DNA from: Gammaproteobacteria bacterium
GTDB taxonomy: Bacteria; Pseudomonadota; Gammaproteobacteria; S012-40
Assembly: GCA_919902765.1 (NCBI GenBank)
Contig: CAKKRP010000084.1
Coordinates: 1-37,014, forward strand
Direction of reading: 5' to 3'
DNA length: 37,014 nt
The translations under genes and the position numbers were made by a program. Positions 24,718 through 30,751 of this stretch are shown here, piece by piece. Below the pieces are notes generated by a model. The model saw only the letters and a program-made list of their open reading frames with translations. It searched no databases and was not told where the DNA came from. Position 1 is the first letter of the stretch, and every line of letters starts with the position of its first letter.

Positions 24718-25536
24718 GTGAATGGTAATGCGGACGATAGCTTGGTCAAAGTGCGCGGACTATCATTTCGCCGTAATGAGCGCGTTATTTTAGAAAATGT
24801 CGATTTAGATATCCCGCGCGGAAAAATCACCGCCATCATGGGGCCTAGCGGCACCGGCAAGACCACTTTATTACGCCTCATTGGCGGGCAGTTGCCGCCG
24901 CTGCAAGGCAGCATCGAAATCGACGGTCTGAATGTGCCGGCCTTGAAGTTGCCGGCCTTGTATGAATTGCGCAAACGCATGGGCATGTTATTTCAAACCG
25001 GCGCCTTGTTTTCCGATTTAACGGTGTTCGAGAATGTGGCCTTCCCATTGCGCGTACACACACGCTTGCCCGAAAATTTGATTCGCGACCTGGTGTTGAT
25101 GAAGTTGCAGGCGGTGGGCTTGCGCGGCGCGCGGCGTTTAATGCCCGCCGAATTGTCCGGTGGGATGGCGCGGCGCGTGGCCTTGGCGCGCGCGATTGCG
25201 CTAGACCCGATGATGATCATGTATGATGAGCCGTTTACCGGCCAAGACCCGATTACCGTGGGCATCATCATGAAATTGATACAACAATTGAACACCACCT
25301 TGGGATTGACCAGCATTATCGTGTCGCATGATGTGCTGGAGGTGTCGGCGATTGCGGATTACATCTATGTCATTGCGGATGGGCGCGTGATGGAGCATGG
25401 CACGCCGACGGCCCTCGGTCGCTCGCAATCGGCTTGGATGCAGCAGTTTTTACAAGGTCTGCCCGATGGGCCGGCCCCGTTCCATTACCCGGCCAGCGAT
25501 TATGCGACGGAGTTGTTAGAGGCCGACGACGCGTGA
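24718..25536 (+). CDS. mlaF: Phospholipid transport ABC ATPase MlaF
   Basis: 272 residues from a GTG at 24718. Walker A is GPSGTGKTT (42-50), the signature is LSGGMARRVALARA, and Walker B is MIMYDEPFTGQDP. The residues ETGALF-like QTGALFSDLTVFENVAFP are typical of MlaF/TGD3-type ATPases that drive MCE transporters. With MlaE, MlaD and MlaB it moves phospholipids between the inner membrane and the periplasmic carrier MlaC. Its stop overlaps the mlaE start as GTGA. Confidence 0.95.
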   Translation: MNGNADDSLVKVRGLSFRRNERVILENVDLDIPRGKITAIMGPSGTGKTTLLRLIGGQLPPLQGSIEIDGLNVPALKLPALYELRKRMGMLFQTGALFSDLTVFENVAFPLRVHTRLPENLIRDLVLMKLQAVGLRGARRLMPAELSGGMARRVALARAIALDPMMIMYDEPFTGQDPITVGIIMKLIQQLNTTLGLTSIIVSHDVLEVSAIADYIYVIADGRVMEHGTPTALGRSQSAWMQQFLQGLPDGPAPFHYPASDYATELLEADDA

Positions 25537-26312
25537 TCTGGTTAGACAGTTTACAAGAATTTGGTCAAATTACGCTCAAGGCCATTGCGCGTATGGGGCG
25601 CGGCAATTTGTTTTTTTTGAGTGTGTTGCGCGCGCTGCCGTCGTTGCGCGGCGGCACGGATTTGTTAGCGCAACAGATCTACTCGGTAGGCGTGTTGTCG
25701 CTACAGATTATAATGGTCTCGGGCCTAAGCGTCGGCATGGTGTTAGGTTTGCAAGGTTATAATATGCTAGTGGATTTCGGGGCCGAGCAATCGTTAGGTC
25801 AGGCCACGGCCTTGTCCTTGGTCAGGGAACTTGGGCCGGTGTTGACGGCCTTATTATTCGCCGGGCGCGCCGGTTCGGCGTTGACGGCCGAGATCGGGCT
25901 GATGAAGGTCACCGAGCAATTGTCGGCGATGGAAATGATGGCGGTAGACCCGATCAAGCGGGTCATCGTGCCGCGTTTTGTGGCGGCGCTGATATCCTTG
26001 CCGATGTTGGCGGCGATTTTTTCGGCCATCGGCGTACTGGGTGGGTTTTTCGTCGGCGCGGGTTTGCTGGGTGTGGATAGCGGCGCGTTTTGGTCGCAAA
26101 TGCAATCCAAGGTGAGTTTTGGCGAAGACGTGCTCAACGGGTTTATCAAGAGCGTAGTATTTGGCGTGGTGGCGGCGTGGATTGCGGTGTTCGAGGGGTA
26201 TGATGCCGTACCGACCACGGAGGGCGTAAGCCGCGCGACCACGCGCACGGTGGTGGAAACGGCATTTGCCGTGTTAGGGCTGGATTTTATCTTAACGGCC
26301 GTCATGTTCTGA
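25533..26312 (+). CDS. mlaE: Phospholipid transport permease MlaE
   Basis: 259 residues from the GTG at 25533 that overlaps the mlaF stop; the frame is open further upstream inside mlaF, but that part is not permease-like. It is a multi-span membrane protein with the conserved MlaE stretch RELGPVLTALLFAGRAGSALTAEIG (residues about 89-113) and AIGVLGGFFVG. It forms the dimeric core of the Mla complex. The C-terminus TAVMF is close to those of other MlaE proteins. Confidence 0.95.
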   Translation: MIWLDSLQEFGQITLKAIARMGRGNLFFLSVLRALPSLRGGTDLLAQQIYSVGVLSLQIIMVSGLSVGMVLGLQGYNMLVDFGAEQSLGQATALSLVRELGPVLTALLFAGRAGSALTAEIGLMKVTEQLSAMEMMAVDPIKRVIVPRFVAALISLPMLAAIFSAIGVLGGFFVGAGLLGVDSGAFWSQMQSKVSFGEDVLNGFIKSVVFGVVAAWIAVFEGYDAVPTTEGVSRATTRTVVETAFAVLGLDFILTAVMF

Positions 26313-26321
26313 GGCGTACTG

Positions 26322-26801
26322 ATGATAAATAAACGTTGGGTGGAAATAGCCGTAGGCGGCTTTGTCGTGATCAGCTTGGCTGCGATGGTCATGTTGGCGA
26401 TGAAAGTGAGTAATTTAAGCGCCTTTAGCGCGGAAGGCGCTTACGAGGTCGAGGCCCATTTTCAAAATGTCGGCGGACTAAAAGTGCGCGCGCCGGTCAC
26501 GATGGCCGGTGTGCATATCGGACGCGTGGCGGCGATCGAGTTGGATAGTCAACGTTTTGATGCGGTGGTTAAGCTGGCGATAGACGAAAAATTTAATCGT
26601 ATTCCGCTGGACACCTCGGCGGCGGTATTTACCGCCGGTTTACTCGGCGAGCAATATGTCGCGTTGGAACCTGGCGGGGAAGAAAAGACGTTAAAAAACG
26701 GTGATCGTATACGCATCGCGCAATCGGCGATGGTGATGGAACAAATCTTGGGACAATTCATCTTCAATGCAGCGGCCGGTGACAAAGACAAAAAGAATTA
26801 A
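26322..26801 (+). CDS. mlaD: MCE-domain phospholipid-binding protein MlaD
   Basis: 159 residues. One N-terminal membrane anchor (about 7-29) is followed by an MCE domain: YEVEAHFQNVGGLKVRAPVTMAGVHIGRV, then FTAGLLGEQYVALEPGG. The tail is short and ends in a lysine-rich DKDKKN. MlaD hexamers form a hydrophobic tunnel on the periplasmic side of MlaE. The 3' end overlaps the following TolC-family frame by up to 35 bases. Confidence 0.94.
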   Translation: MINKRWVEIAVGGFVVISLAAMVMLAMKVSNLSAFSAEGAYEVEAHFQNVGGLKVRAPVTMAGVHIGRVAAIELDSQRFDAVVKLAIDEKFNRIPLDTSAAVFTAGLLGEQYVALEPGGEEKTLKNGDRIRIAQSAMVMEQILGQFIFNAAAGDKDKKN

Positions 26802-28167
26802 GCGTGGGTGCCGCTGTCTGGCGAGCGCGATTTGCGCCACATTGATGTGGGCGGACGCAGGCGCGGAGACCTTAAATTACGCCCAAGCACTGAGTTTAAG
26901 CCTGCAGCGCGACCCACGCATCGCAGAAAAAAATCATTTGGTGGATGTCGCGCAGGCCCAAGAGCGCGAAGTCGATGGCAACGCCGGTTTGCGCGTAGAT
27001 TTTAATAGTTTTCTCGGGCTCGCGCCGGCCGTGCGCGGTGGCTTGTTCGCCAATGCGGATTGCGGTAACGGCGTCGTGTGTACCAATCGCACGGATCGGT
27101 ACAGTATCGCGCAAGGCGTATCGCCATGGACCTATGCGCAAATCAGCATCGTCAAACCGGTACTGACGTTCGGCAAAATCGCGCATTTTCGCGAGGCCGC
27201 ACGCGGGCAGACGCAGGTTAAACAAGGCGATGTGCGGCTGCAACGCGCTGAAATCGCCATGGACGTGGCCAAGGCCTATTATGGACATCTCGCGGCGCGC
27301 GACGCCCACGCATTTCTCGACGATGTGCGCAAGACCGTCGCCAACGCCGTGGATAAAGTCGATCGTTGGTTGAAAGAAGGCAGCGGCGATGTCGCGCAAT
27401 CCGATGTCTATGCCTTGCAAACCGGTTTGGCGTTGGTGGAAAAATATCTCGCACAAACCCGTGGCCTGGAGGCGATCGGCATGGAAGGCTTGCGCACCTT
27501 AACCGGCTTGTCCGCCCCGGCCGAACTGGCGCTGGCCGATGCGCGCCTGCAGCGGGTGGCGTTACCGGCCTTGGATATTTCGGCATTGCAAGCGCAGGCC
27601 ATGGATAAGCGCCCGGAATTCGGGCAATTGGATGCCGGGTTGCACGCGCGACGCGCCTTGGTGGCGGCCAATAAGGCCGGGCATTATCCAAACGTATATG
27701 TCGGCGTGGCGGGCATGTTTTCTTATTCGCTGCGCCGTGATCGCTTGGATAATCCGTATATTACCGACAGTTTCAACGACTACGGCGGGACGCCGTTGGT
27801 GGGTGTGCAATGGCAATGGCAGCCGGGCGTGGTATCGGCCAAGGTCGCCCAAGCCGAGGGGGAGTTAAACGCGCTGATTGATAAGGCCGCGTTGGCGCGT
27901 CAGGGGATTCCATTTCAAGTGGCGGAGGCTGCCCATCAGGTGCGCGCCGCCTATGAAGCGTCCGGCAAATCGGAAGAAGGCGCGCGCGCGGCACGGCGTT
28001 GGATGATCACCGCCTACGCGGATTTCGATGCGGGCTTAGACAAACCGGAAAAAGTGCTTACCGCCTTGCAAGGATATGTGTTGGCGCAGACCGATTATTT
28101 GCAATCCGTTTTTGAGTACAATATGGCTGTAGTAAAATTGCAGCAAAGCGTTGGAGACTACGAATGA
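26767..28167 (+). CDS. TolC-family outer-membrane channel protein inside the mla operon
   Basis: 466 residues from the ATG at 26767; a GTG at 26779 gives a shorter start with the same signal peptide. A basic n-region (KTKRIKRG) and a hydrophobic core end near AGA. The mature part starts LNYAQALSLSLQRDPRI and shows the two-fold TolC repeat, with long helices such as GSGDVAQSDVYALQTGLALV and the C-terminal LQSVFEYNMAVVKLQQSVG. Such proteins form trimeric outer-membrane and periplasm-spanning ducts. Here it lies between mlaD and mlaC, overlapping both, so it is probably expressed as part of the Mla system. Confidence 0.9.
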   Translation: MQRPVTKTKRIKRGCRCLASAICATLMWADAGAETLNYAQALSLSLQRDPRIAEKNHLVDVAQAQEREVDGNAGLRVDFNSFLGLAPAVRGGLFANADCGNGVVCTNRTDRYSIAQGVSPWTYAQISIVKPVLTFGKIAHFREAARGQTQVKQGDVRLQRAEIAMDVAKAYYGHLAARDAHAFLDDVRKTVANAVDKVDRWLKEGSGDVAQSDVYALQTGLALVEKYLAQTRGLEAIGMEGLRTLTGLSAPAELALADARLQRVALPALDISALQAQAMDKRPEFGQLDAGLHARRALVAANKAGHYPNVYVGVAGMFSYSLRRDRLDNPYITDSFNDYGGTPLVGVQWQWQPGVVSAKVAQAEGELNALIDKAALARQGIPFQVAEAAHQVRAAYEASGKSEEGARAARRWMITAYADFDAGLDKPEKVLTALQGYVLAQTDYLQSVFEYNMAVVKLQQSVGDYE

Positions 28168-28784
28168 ACGTAAAGCATCGATGGGCAATAAGTTTATGGC
28201 TGGTCAGCGCATGGCTGGGCGCGGCGGCGGTGATCGCCGCCCCCATGCCGCCCAAAGAATTGGTCGAGCAAACGGCCAATGATGTGATCGCGAAATTAAA
28301 AAAAGAGCGCGCACAAATCGACAAAAATCCGCAGATGTTATATCCATTCGTCGAAAAATACGTATTGCCGCACTTTGATTTCGAACGCATGGCGAAATGG
28401 GTGTTGGGACGCAGTTGGCGCGATGCCAGCGCTGCGCAACAACAGCGGTTTATCGGTGAATTTCGGCAATTGTTGGTGCGTACTTATGCGTCCTCGTTGA
28501 TGGAATATTCCGAACGCAATATCCGTTATTTGCCGTTTCGCGCCGCGCCCAATGCCGCTGAAGTCACGGTGCGCTCCGAGGTCGAGCAACCGGGAGGATT
28601 TCCGATCCCGATTTCTTACGAGTTGTATTTGAAAGATGATCGTTGGATGGTGTATGACGTGGCCATCGACAATCAAAGTTTGATCGGTAATTATCGCACC
28701 AGTTTTGCGCGCGAGATCAAACAAGGCAACATAGACCAATTGATTAATAAACTCGCCGATCGTAATAAGCAAGGGAAGTCATGA
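28164..28784 (+). CDS. mlaC: Periplasmic phospholipid carrier MlaC
   Basis: 206 residues. A signal peptide ends AAVIAAP at about residue 26. The MlaC/Ttg2D domain follows with YPFVEKYVLPHFDFERMAKWVLGRSWRDAS and later DDRWMVYDVAIDNQSLIGNYRTSF. MlaC shuttles phospholipids between the inner-membrane MlaFEDB complex and an outer-membrane partner. It overlaps the upstream TolC-family gene and the downstream mlaB by ATGA. Confidence 0.95.
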   Translation: MNVKHRWAISLWLVSAWLGAAAVIAAPMPPKELVEQTANDVIAKLKKERAQIDKNPQMLYPFVEKYVLPHFDFERMAKWVLGRSWRDASAAQQQRFIGEFRQLLVRTYASSLMEYSERNIRYLPFRAAPNAAEVTVRSEVEQPGGFPIPISYELYLKDDRWMVYDVAIDNQSLIGNYRTSFAREIKQGNIDQLINKLADRNKQGKS

Positions 28785-29077
28785 GCCAAGCGTCTCTACA
28801 AACGCTCGCCGCCGGCCAAGTCGCCGTGCGCGGGGAATTGACGTTTTATTCCGTTCCGGAGTTGTTGCGCGACAGCAAAGAAGTGTTCACTCGCGGGCAG
28901 TCTATAGTGATCGATCTGGCGGGGGTGACGCGTAGCGATAGCGCGGGAATCGCGTTGGTGTTGGAGTGGCTGCGTAGCGCGCGGCGGCAGCGGGCGGAAC
29001 TGCGTTTTGTCAACGTGCCGGAACAAATGCAGGCATTGGCGCGTGTCGGCGGTGTCGATGCGTTGTTGGCGTGGTGA
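28781..29077 (+). CDS. mlaB: STAS-domain protein MlaB
   Basis: 98 residues, the size of MlaB. The STAS core reads IVIDLAGVTRSDSAGIALVLEWLRSAR. MlaB binds MlaF and is needed for assembly and activity of the transporter. The start overlaps the mlaC stop as ATGA. Its own stop lies one base before the yadG start, so the next transporter is probably translated from the same message. Confidence 0.93.
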   Translation: MSQASLQTLAAGQVAVRGELTFYSVPELLRDSKEVFTRGQSIVIDLAGVTRSDSAGIALVLEWLRSARRQRAELRFVNVPEQMQALARVGGVDALLAW

Positions 29078-29078
29078 T

Positions 29079-29993
29079 ATGGACGCCGTTACCATCGCGC
29101 ACCTACACAAGTATTTTGGGACCGTGCATGCCCTCAAGGGCATCGACTTTACGATACACGCCGGTGAATTTTTCGGCTTGCTAGGCCCCAATGGCGCGGG
29201 CAAATCCACGCTGATCAATATCATGGCCGGATTGGCGCGCGCCGCCGGCGGCAGCATCCAGGTGCATGGCCATGATGTCGTAAAACACTATCGAAAATCG
29301 CGTATGTTGTTGGGCGTGGTGCCGCAAGAATTGGTGTACGATCCGTTTTTCAGCGTGCGCGAGATGTTGCGCTTGCAATCCGGATATTTCGGTTTTGGGC
29401 GCGAAAATTACCCGTGGATAGACGAGTTGCTGACGGTGTTGAATCTGCAAGACAAGGCCACCGCCAATCTCTCTCAGTTATCGGGCGGTATGAAACGCCG
29501 CGTGTTGATCGCGCAGGCCTTGGTGCATAAACCCAAGGTGCTGGTGTTGGATGAGCCGACGGCGGGCGTGGATGTCGAATTGCGTCAAGCGCTATGGGAA
29601 TTCTCGTCGCGTTTGCATAAGCAGGGGACGACCATCGTGTTGACGACACACTATTTGGAAGAGGCCGAGGCCTTGTGCGGACGCATAGCGATCCTCGATC
29701 AAGGTGCGGTGGTCGCACTGGATAAGACCTCCGTTTTATTGGATCGCCATCCCTATCGTTTGCTGTGTTTGACCACGCAATCGGCAACAGTGACGGTGCC
29801 GGCGGCGCTTGCGCCATTGGTGCTGTCGCAACATGGGCGCGCACTTATATTGCGCCTACATCGCAGCCAAGATCCGGTCAGCGACGTGTTGGACAGTTTG
29901 CGCAATGCGGGTGTACAGATCCAAGATATCCAATTGCGCGAGCCCAAATTGGAAGATGTATTTTTACATATCACCGGGCGGGGACACGCATGA
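29079..29993 (+). CDS. yadG: ABC transporter ATP-binding protein, YadG-like
   Basis: 304 residues from the ATG at 29079. Walker A is GPNGAGKST, the signature LSGGMKRRVLIAQAL, and Walker B VLVLDEPTAGVD followed by TTHYLEEAE. It resembles E. coli YadG throughout, including GVVPQE and the C-terminal LRNAGVQIQDIQLREPKLEDVFL. It pairs with the following permease as an ABC-2 exporter of unknown substrate. The tight placement after mlaB suggests a cell-envelope role. Confidence 0.88.
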   Translation: MDAVTIAHLHKYFGTVHALKGIDFTIHAGEFFGLLGPNGAGKSTLINIMAGLARAAGGSIQVHGHDVVKHYRKSRMLLGVVPQELVYDPFFSVREMLRLQSGYFGFGRENYPWIDELLTVLNLQDKATANLSQLSGGMKRRVLIAQALVHKPKVLVLDEPTAGVDVELRQALWEFSSRLHKQGTTIVLTTHYLEEAEALCGRIAILDQGAVVALDKTSVLLDRHPYRLLCLTTQSATVTVPAALAPLVLSQHGRALILRLHRSQDPVSDVLDSLRNAGVQIQDIQLREPKLEDVFLHITGRGHA

Positions 29994-30751
29994 ATTGGCG
30001 CGGGTTTTACACCTTATTCGCCAAAGAAGTGTGGCGGTTTATGAAGGTCGCGGTGCAAACGGTGTTGACCCCGGTGGTGACGGCGGTGTTGTATTTGGTG
30101 GTGTTTGCGCATGTGTTGGAAGAGCATGTGCAAGTCTATCCGGGCGTCACCTATACGGCTTTTTTGATTCCCGGCTTGATTATGATGAGTGTAATTCAAA
30201 ACGCCTTCGCGAATAGTTCATCCAGCCTCATCCAATCCAAAATGAACGGCAATATCGTATTCGTATTATTGGCGCCGATTTCCAGTTTGGAATTTTATTT
30301 GGCGTTTGTGCTGGCGGCGATTGCGCGCGGCGTGATGGTGGGCGTGGTGTTGTATGCGGTCGCCTTGGGCTTTGCCGATTTACCGGTGCCGCATTTGGGC
30401 ATGTTGTTGGCGTTTGGCGTATTGGGCAGCGGCTTGCTGGGTGCCTTAGGCTTGATAGGTGGCATTTGGGCCGATAAATACGACCAATTGGCGGCGTTCC
30501 AGAACTTCTTGATCTTGCCGTTGTCTTTTTTGAGTGGGGTGTTTTATTCGCTATATTCCCTCTCGCCGTTTTGGCAAACGGTCTCGCGCTTTAATCCGTT
30601 TTTCTACATGATCGACGGGGTGCGGTATGGATTTTTGGGGGTGTCGGATGTCTCGCCGTATCAGAGTCTCTGGATCATCTCTTTGTTTTTTATAGCTATT
30701 TCCGTTGTTGCGTGGTTTATGATAGAACGCGGTTATAAACTCCGTCGGTAG
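29990..30751 (+). CDS. yadH: ABC-2 type permease, YadH-like
   Basis: 253 residues with six membrane segments. The stretches FLIPGLIMMSVIQNAFAN, LSFLSGVFYSLYSLSPFWQ and MIDGVRYGFLG match the ABC-2 permease pattern of YadH. It overlaps yadG by ATGA. The half-transporter pair would export a substrate from the cytoplasm or inner membrane; the substrate is unknown. Confidence 0.9.
   Translation: MNWRGFYTLFAKEVWRFMKVAVQTVLTPVVTAVLYLVVFAHVLEEHVQVYPGVTYTAFLIPGLIMMSVIQNAFANSSSSLIQSKMNGNIVFVLLAPISSLEFYLAFVLAAIARGVMVGVVLYAVALGFADLPVPHLGMLLAFGVLGSGLLGALGLIGGIWADKYDQLAAFQNFLILPLSFLSGVFYSLYSLSPFWQTVSRFNPFFYMIDGVRYGFLGVSDVSPYQSLWIISLFFIAISVVAWFMIERGYKLRR

Follow-up and report, generated by a model that had tools for sequence, protein, structure and literature searches.

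A TolC-family protein in the mlaD-mlaC slot as the probable replacement of MlaA in a variant Mla system

Organisation of the mla operon

The window, i.e. the whole stretch of 37,014 nucleotides that was analysed, carries an mla operon in the order mlaF-mlaE-mlaD-tolCm-mlaC-mlaB, a single tightly coupled run with overlapping coding ends. The name TolCm is used here for the TolC-family protein of the mla operon encoded in the mlaD-mlaC slot. The genes are as follows:

24718-25536, forward strand: mlaF, ATPase of the inner-membrane MCE transporter (PF00005; best NCBIfam match PRK11831 MlaF, 405 bits)
25533-26312, forward strand: mlaE, permease, with a GTG start overlapping the mlaF stop (PF02405, E 1.3e-73; NF033619 above cut-off)
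26322-26801, forward strand: mlaD, short single-domain MCE protein of 159 aa (TIGR04430 OM_asym_MlaD, 181.7 bits against a cut-off of 135)
26767-28167, forward strand: tolCm, TolC-family outer-membrane protein of 466 aa (PF02321, E 5.6e-21), in the slot held by mlaA in some relatives
28164-28784, forward strand: mlaC, periplasmic lipid carrier (PF05494, E 4.8e-55), matching solved MlaC/Ttg2D proteins
28781-29077, forward strand: mlaB, STAS-domain subunit (PF13466, E 7.2e-19)

The ATG of tolCm sits 35 nt inside mlaD, and an alternative GTG start at 26779 overlaps mlaD too; the 3' end of tolCm overlaps the mlaC start as ATGA, and that of mlaC overlaps the mlaB start in the same way. A first-pass annotation had described a TolC-family gene between mlaD and mlaC, overlapping the former and coupled by ATGA to the latter, and this description is exact. 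The MlaF-MlaE-MlaD transporter, MlaB and the MlaC carrier of an Mla system are all present in the window. The solved MlaD nearest to the window protein is 7ch8; lack of the 4-residue beta6-beta7 insertion of E. coli was dropped as an MlaD marker, 7ch8 being also without it. Downstream of the mla genes lie bolA/ibaG and murA, with an ABC-2 transporter pair (29079-30751) between mlaB and bolA. ABC-2 genes were found downstream at 17 of the 52 TolCm loci with room and at several MlaA loci, so that the pair is regarded as an optional neighbour and a functional tie to TolCm was rejected.

Predicted fold and conserved loop of TolCm

TolCm scored 75.6 bits against PF02321 (curated cut-off 22), the C-terminal repeat alone giving the match. 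The AlphaFold2 model (68 sequences; pLDDT 91.1, pTM 0.81) has an unambiguous, full-length TolC fold with four outer-membrane strands per protomer (residues 76-87, 118-133, 309-321 and 338-348) and two long helices of 68-69 residues (137-204 and 353-421). A Foldseek search with this model returned TolC, OprM, CusC and similar proteins at a probability of 1.00. Identity to solved structures of this type is 14-17%, and of the proteins returned by Foldseek CusC alone is reached by sequence (5e-4). Three connecting segments of the model are of interest:

27376-27399, forward strand: predicted periplasmic tip turn 1 (residues 204-211), joining helices 137-204 and 211-246; G207 is invariant in alignment A2
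27730-27777, forward strand: predicted extracellular loop 2 (residues 322-337), joining strands 309-321 and 338-348; motif RxxxxNPxxxDxFN
28027-28047, forward strand: predicted periplasmic tip turn 2 (residues 421-427), joining helices 353-421 and 427-462; A422 and G423 are invariant in A2

The most conserved segment of the protein is predicted extracellular loop 2 (2.70 bits, the mean being 2.07), as measured on loci that came from whole-protein or profile searches, none having been picked by the loop motif. The extracellular loops of efflux outer-membrane proteins are usually variable. Conservation of a predicted surface loop would point to a role at the outer leaflet, where it may act as a plug, as a lipid-capture site or as a contact with another outer-membrane protein. 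A long C-terminal tail of the kind used by MlaA for MlaC binding is absent from TolCm. In a sample of 370 class genomes, all with a completeness of 90% or more, TolCm is a sharply separate family with one copy per genome; several other TolC-family candidates were found in genomes of the source family.

Distribution of TolCm at mla loci

A search with the window protein found TolCm in 11 of the 13 source-family genomes; the two others were treated as uninformative, mlaE being cut by a contig end in one (G004) and giving a truncated match in the other (G009). A GTDB contig scan returned 80 loci, the hosts being many gammaproteobacterial MAGs together with sulfur-oxidising betaproteobacteria (Sulfuriferula, Sulfuricella, Sulfurimicrobium, Thiobacillus and Hydrogenophilaceae). 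Across 99 non-redundant loci, mlaC lies at most 150 bp downstream of tolCm at 90 of the 94 with room, the other four having mlaC elsewhere in the cluster, and mlaD is immediately upstream at 68 of the 87 with enough upstream sequence. The mlaD-tolCm-mlaC arrangement is far from a chance one, and the survey of mla operons proposed in the first-pass annotation shows it to be conserved rather than sporadic. At the level of the phylum TolCm is rare (5/397 genomes); the matches beyond the window number four, and the three loci fetched, of which two belong to genomes outside the class, all read mlaE-mlaD-TolCm-mlaC.

Absence of MlaA and mutual exclusion with TolCm

The MlaA model PF04333 gave no match in the source genome (95.3% complete, 157 contigs), nor in the 13 source-family genomes, which are all the sampled genomes of the order and include nine that are at least 90% complete. 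The model works on relatives, since it detects MlaA in 298 of the 370 class genomes with E < 1e-48. Intact mlaA elsewhere in the genome combined with a sporadic TolC-family gene, the outcome that the first-pass annotation had set against its own proposal, was thus not what was found.

Among the 370 class genomes, TolCm occurs in 44 and the outer-membrane-asymmetry MlaD in 303; the latter divide into 250 with MlaA only, 37 with TolCm only, 5 with both and 11 with neither, an anti-correlation with a Fisher p of 3e-32 when relatedness is ignored. TolCm is spread over 19 families, in 15 of which no sampled TolCm genome has MlaA, and two families (f61 and f65) combine genomes that have TolCm with one that has MlaA without it. 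As the first-pass annotation had stated, mlaA can fill the mlaD-mlaC slot, and it does so at L173, L195, L198 and L236. At none of 56 mla loci fetched from genomes with MlaA does the slot hold TolCm; it is either vacant or filled by mlaA. One genome (G083) has two mla operons, with TolCm in one (L178) and MlaA in the identical slot of the other (L173), which runs mlaB-E-D-A-C and has its mlaF encoded on the other strand; in the other four genomes with both proteins mlaA is stand-alone. A quick tree of MlaFED, many branches of which are weak, needs 14 changes of label, at least five of them forced by well-supported branches. Because of these changes of state, exchange between TolCm and MlaA seems to have happened repeatedly, and they speak against a single origin of the TolCm operon; gain, loss or transfer may each underlie them.

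Other arrangements were observed alongside. At ten loci (L191, L192, L197, L200, L222, L226, L227, L240, L242 and L247) mlaB comes straight after mlaD, mlaC being missing from the slot, and most such genomes have MlaA. Two genomes with a TolCm-type mla operon (G122 and G274) also carry an extra MCE cluster (L180 and L182, respectively) that resembles the Mpc/Pqi type, with MlaE, MlaF, a longer MlaD and then a small protein with a lipoprotein-like N-terminus.

Association of TolCm with MlaC

TolCm is linked more closely to MlaC than to MlaD by four lines of observation. First, some 20 loci without mlaFED, and usually without mlaB, keep tolCm-mlaC before murA (among them L009, L053, L060, L063-L066, L068, L069, L074, L078-L080, L089, L090 and L154), and three genomes that keep the pair (G007, G245 and G322) have no MlaE and no MCE protein of any kind. 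Second, at L179 of G186 the operon is interrupted behind mlaD by a pair of unrelated genes, and tolCm remains with mlaC. Third, a second MlaC and TolC pair was found in an MMPL-MlaC-TolC operon on contig 12 of G008 (L155:7219-11575), a single example. MMPL transporters are a family known for lipid export. The MMPL-linked TolC is 27% identical overall to the window TolCm but keeps the loop motif, the loop 2 region reading RDDTDNPYHFDEYND in the former and RDRLDNPYITDSFND in the latter; used as a query at E<=1e-35 it matched 30 of the 370 genomes, and among the matches listed all are TolCm from the mla slot. Fourth, a mirror-tree comparison corrected by MurA gave a TolCm-MlaC correlation of 0.70, which is the highest of those computed and constitutes weak evidence.

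The MlaC sequences bear on the same question. In E. coli MlaC, Y82K abolished MlaD binding (PMC10245069). The equivalent position is W in 91% of MlaA systems and TolCm systems with MlaD, and K in 86% of TolCm loci without MlaD. By this residue, MlaC retains the face for MlaD in systems that have MlaD, and binding to TolCm, by whichever surface, probably needs no aromatic at this position.

Proposed role of TolCm

From the pattern of gene content and order, TolCm is probably the outer-membrane part of a variant Mla, in which it would take over from MlaA in docking MlaC and exchanging lipid with it, the docking partner being argued from gene order. A non-orthologous, non-homologous replacement is the most economical reading of the swap; the four genomes combining TolCm with a stand-alone MlaA are a counter-point to it. 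TolCm would form a TolC-like trimer, at the barrel of which outer-leaflet phospholipids would be taken up with the help of the conserved loop and passed to MlaC at the periplasmic end; MlaC would then ferry them, as it does in E. coli, to MlaFEB and the hexamer of MlaD. In the genomes without an MCE transporter, the TolCm-MlaC pair must do something else or use another partner. More tentatively, the trimer may itself work inward, its extracellular loops capturing outer-leaflet phospholipids that pass through or along the barrel to MlaC. TolC proteins are, to our knowledge, otherwise known for export, and we know of no precedent for a lipid path through a TolC barrel. If true, TolCm would be a TolC channel for lipid uptake, and MlaC-TolC a transferable module that joins up with MMPL transporters as well.

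Transport in the opposite direction is possible and ranks second, although it is rather unlikely: MlaFEDB would load MlaC, which would give a lipid or other amphiphile to TolCm for placement in the outer leaflet or release. TolC-family proteins are outward conduits, the MMPL-linked cousin adjoins a member of a lipid-export transporter family and, according to PMC10212509, the direction of Mla transport was for long under debate. However, MlaFEDB and MlaC are of the ordinary retrieval types, the component that TolCm excludes, MlaA, is itself a retrieval component, and genomes without MCE proteins have no pump left at the locus to power export.

The first-pass annotation had proposed a trans-envelope duct for phospholipids replacing MlaA, and the part of this that holds concerns MlaA, which is absent and anti-correlated with TolCm. 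The duct itself, in which the TolCm tunnel would dock on the MlaD hexamer to make one unbroken channel, MlaC being accessory, is improbable. It would draw on the full-length helical tunnel of the AlphaFold2 model, on the overlap of tolCm with mlaD and on the MCE proteins that bridge the envelope in other systems, as described in the excerpted text of PMC10665443; it is disfavoured because MlaD has the short form that partners MlaC in E. coli, because no locus with room lacks mlaC, and because TolCm is kept even where MlaD is missing and stays beside mlaC in the split operon. An MlaC shuttle is preferred over such a duct.

It is very unlikely that TolCm is an ordinary efflux outer-membrane factor standing in the operon by chance with no Mla role. 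Its TolC fold would fit, and the several other TolC-family candidates in these genomes belong to a class of proteins that can serve several pumps, but TolCm loci have no adaptor or pump gene, the ABC-2 genes are too irregular in occurrence to fill that place, and both the separateness of this single-copy family and its mutual exclusion with MlaA argue otherwise. That MlaA is present yet was missed through divergence or the incomplete assembly of the source genome is hardly credible in view of its absence from all 13 family genomes, and loss to poor assembly was rejected.

The replacement of MlaA by TolCm, if correct, bears on a system of which MlaA with a porin is regarded as an invariable component in Proteobacteria. 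About one in seven of the sampled Mla-bearing genomes of the class (42/303) has a TolC-type protein in the operon, 37 of the 42 being without MlaA, and a second, so far uncharacterised form of Mla appears to exist in many gamma- and betaproteobacteria. As a natural swap at the outer membrane in which carrier and pump are ordinary, it would offer a handle on lipid exchange by MlaC at the outer membrane and on the direction of lipid flow, and would give the TolC family a job outside pump-driven export.

Comparison with known systems

No description of a TolCm-type Mla variant was found in the open-access full-text literature that was searched, and its novelty is provisional; the nearest published precedent is the Veillonella mlaEFD-tolC-tamB cluster, and Brucella Mpc is also close. 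Compared with the Mla system of E. coli (MlaA-OmpC/F, MlaC and MlaFEDB), the window operon encodes MlaF, MlaE, MlaD, MlaC and MlaB in an unchanged gene order and shares its bolA/ibaG and murA neighbours with strain K-12, whereas MlaA is missing and a TolC-family protein lies inside the operon. TolC/OprM/CusC efflux and type I secretion factors share fold and length with TolCm, which differs from them in its low sequence identity, in its conserved extracellular loop and in the lack of the adaptor and pump genes of a tripartite efflux system at its loci, although it may share a pump encoded at another place in the genome. In the minimal Mla of Veillonella parvula (mlaEFD, then tolC and tamB), as described in the excerpted text of PMC10665443, MCE genes likewise stand directly before a tolC homologue without MlaA; there, however, a long MlaD carries a beta-barrel of its own and no MlaC is present, whereas the window operon has a short MlaD together with MlaC and MlaB. 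The same excerpted text uses V. parvula TolC as an outer-membrane marker and gives it no Mla role. The chimeric Mla-Pqi system Mpc of Brucella abortus (PMC12436622) is alike in joining an MCE transporter to an outer-membrane component other than MlaA, and differs in that the replacement is a PqiC-like lipoprotein, the MCE protein is needle-like and MlaC is absent.
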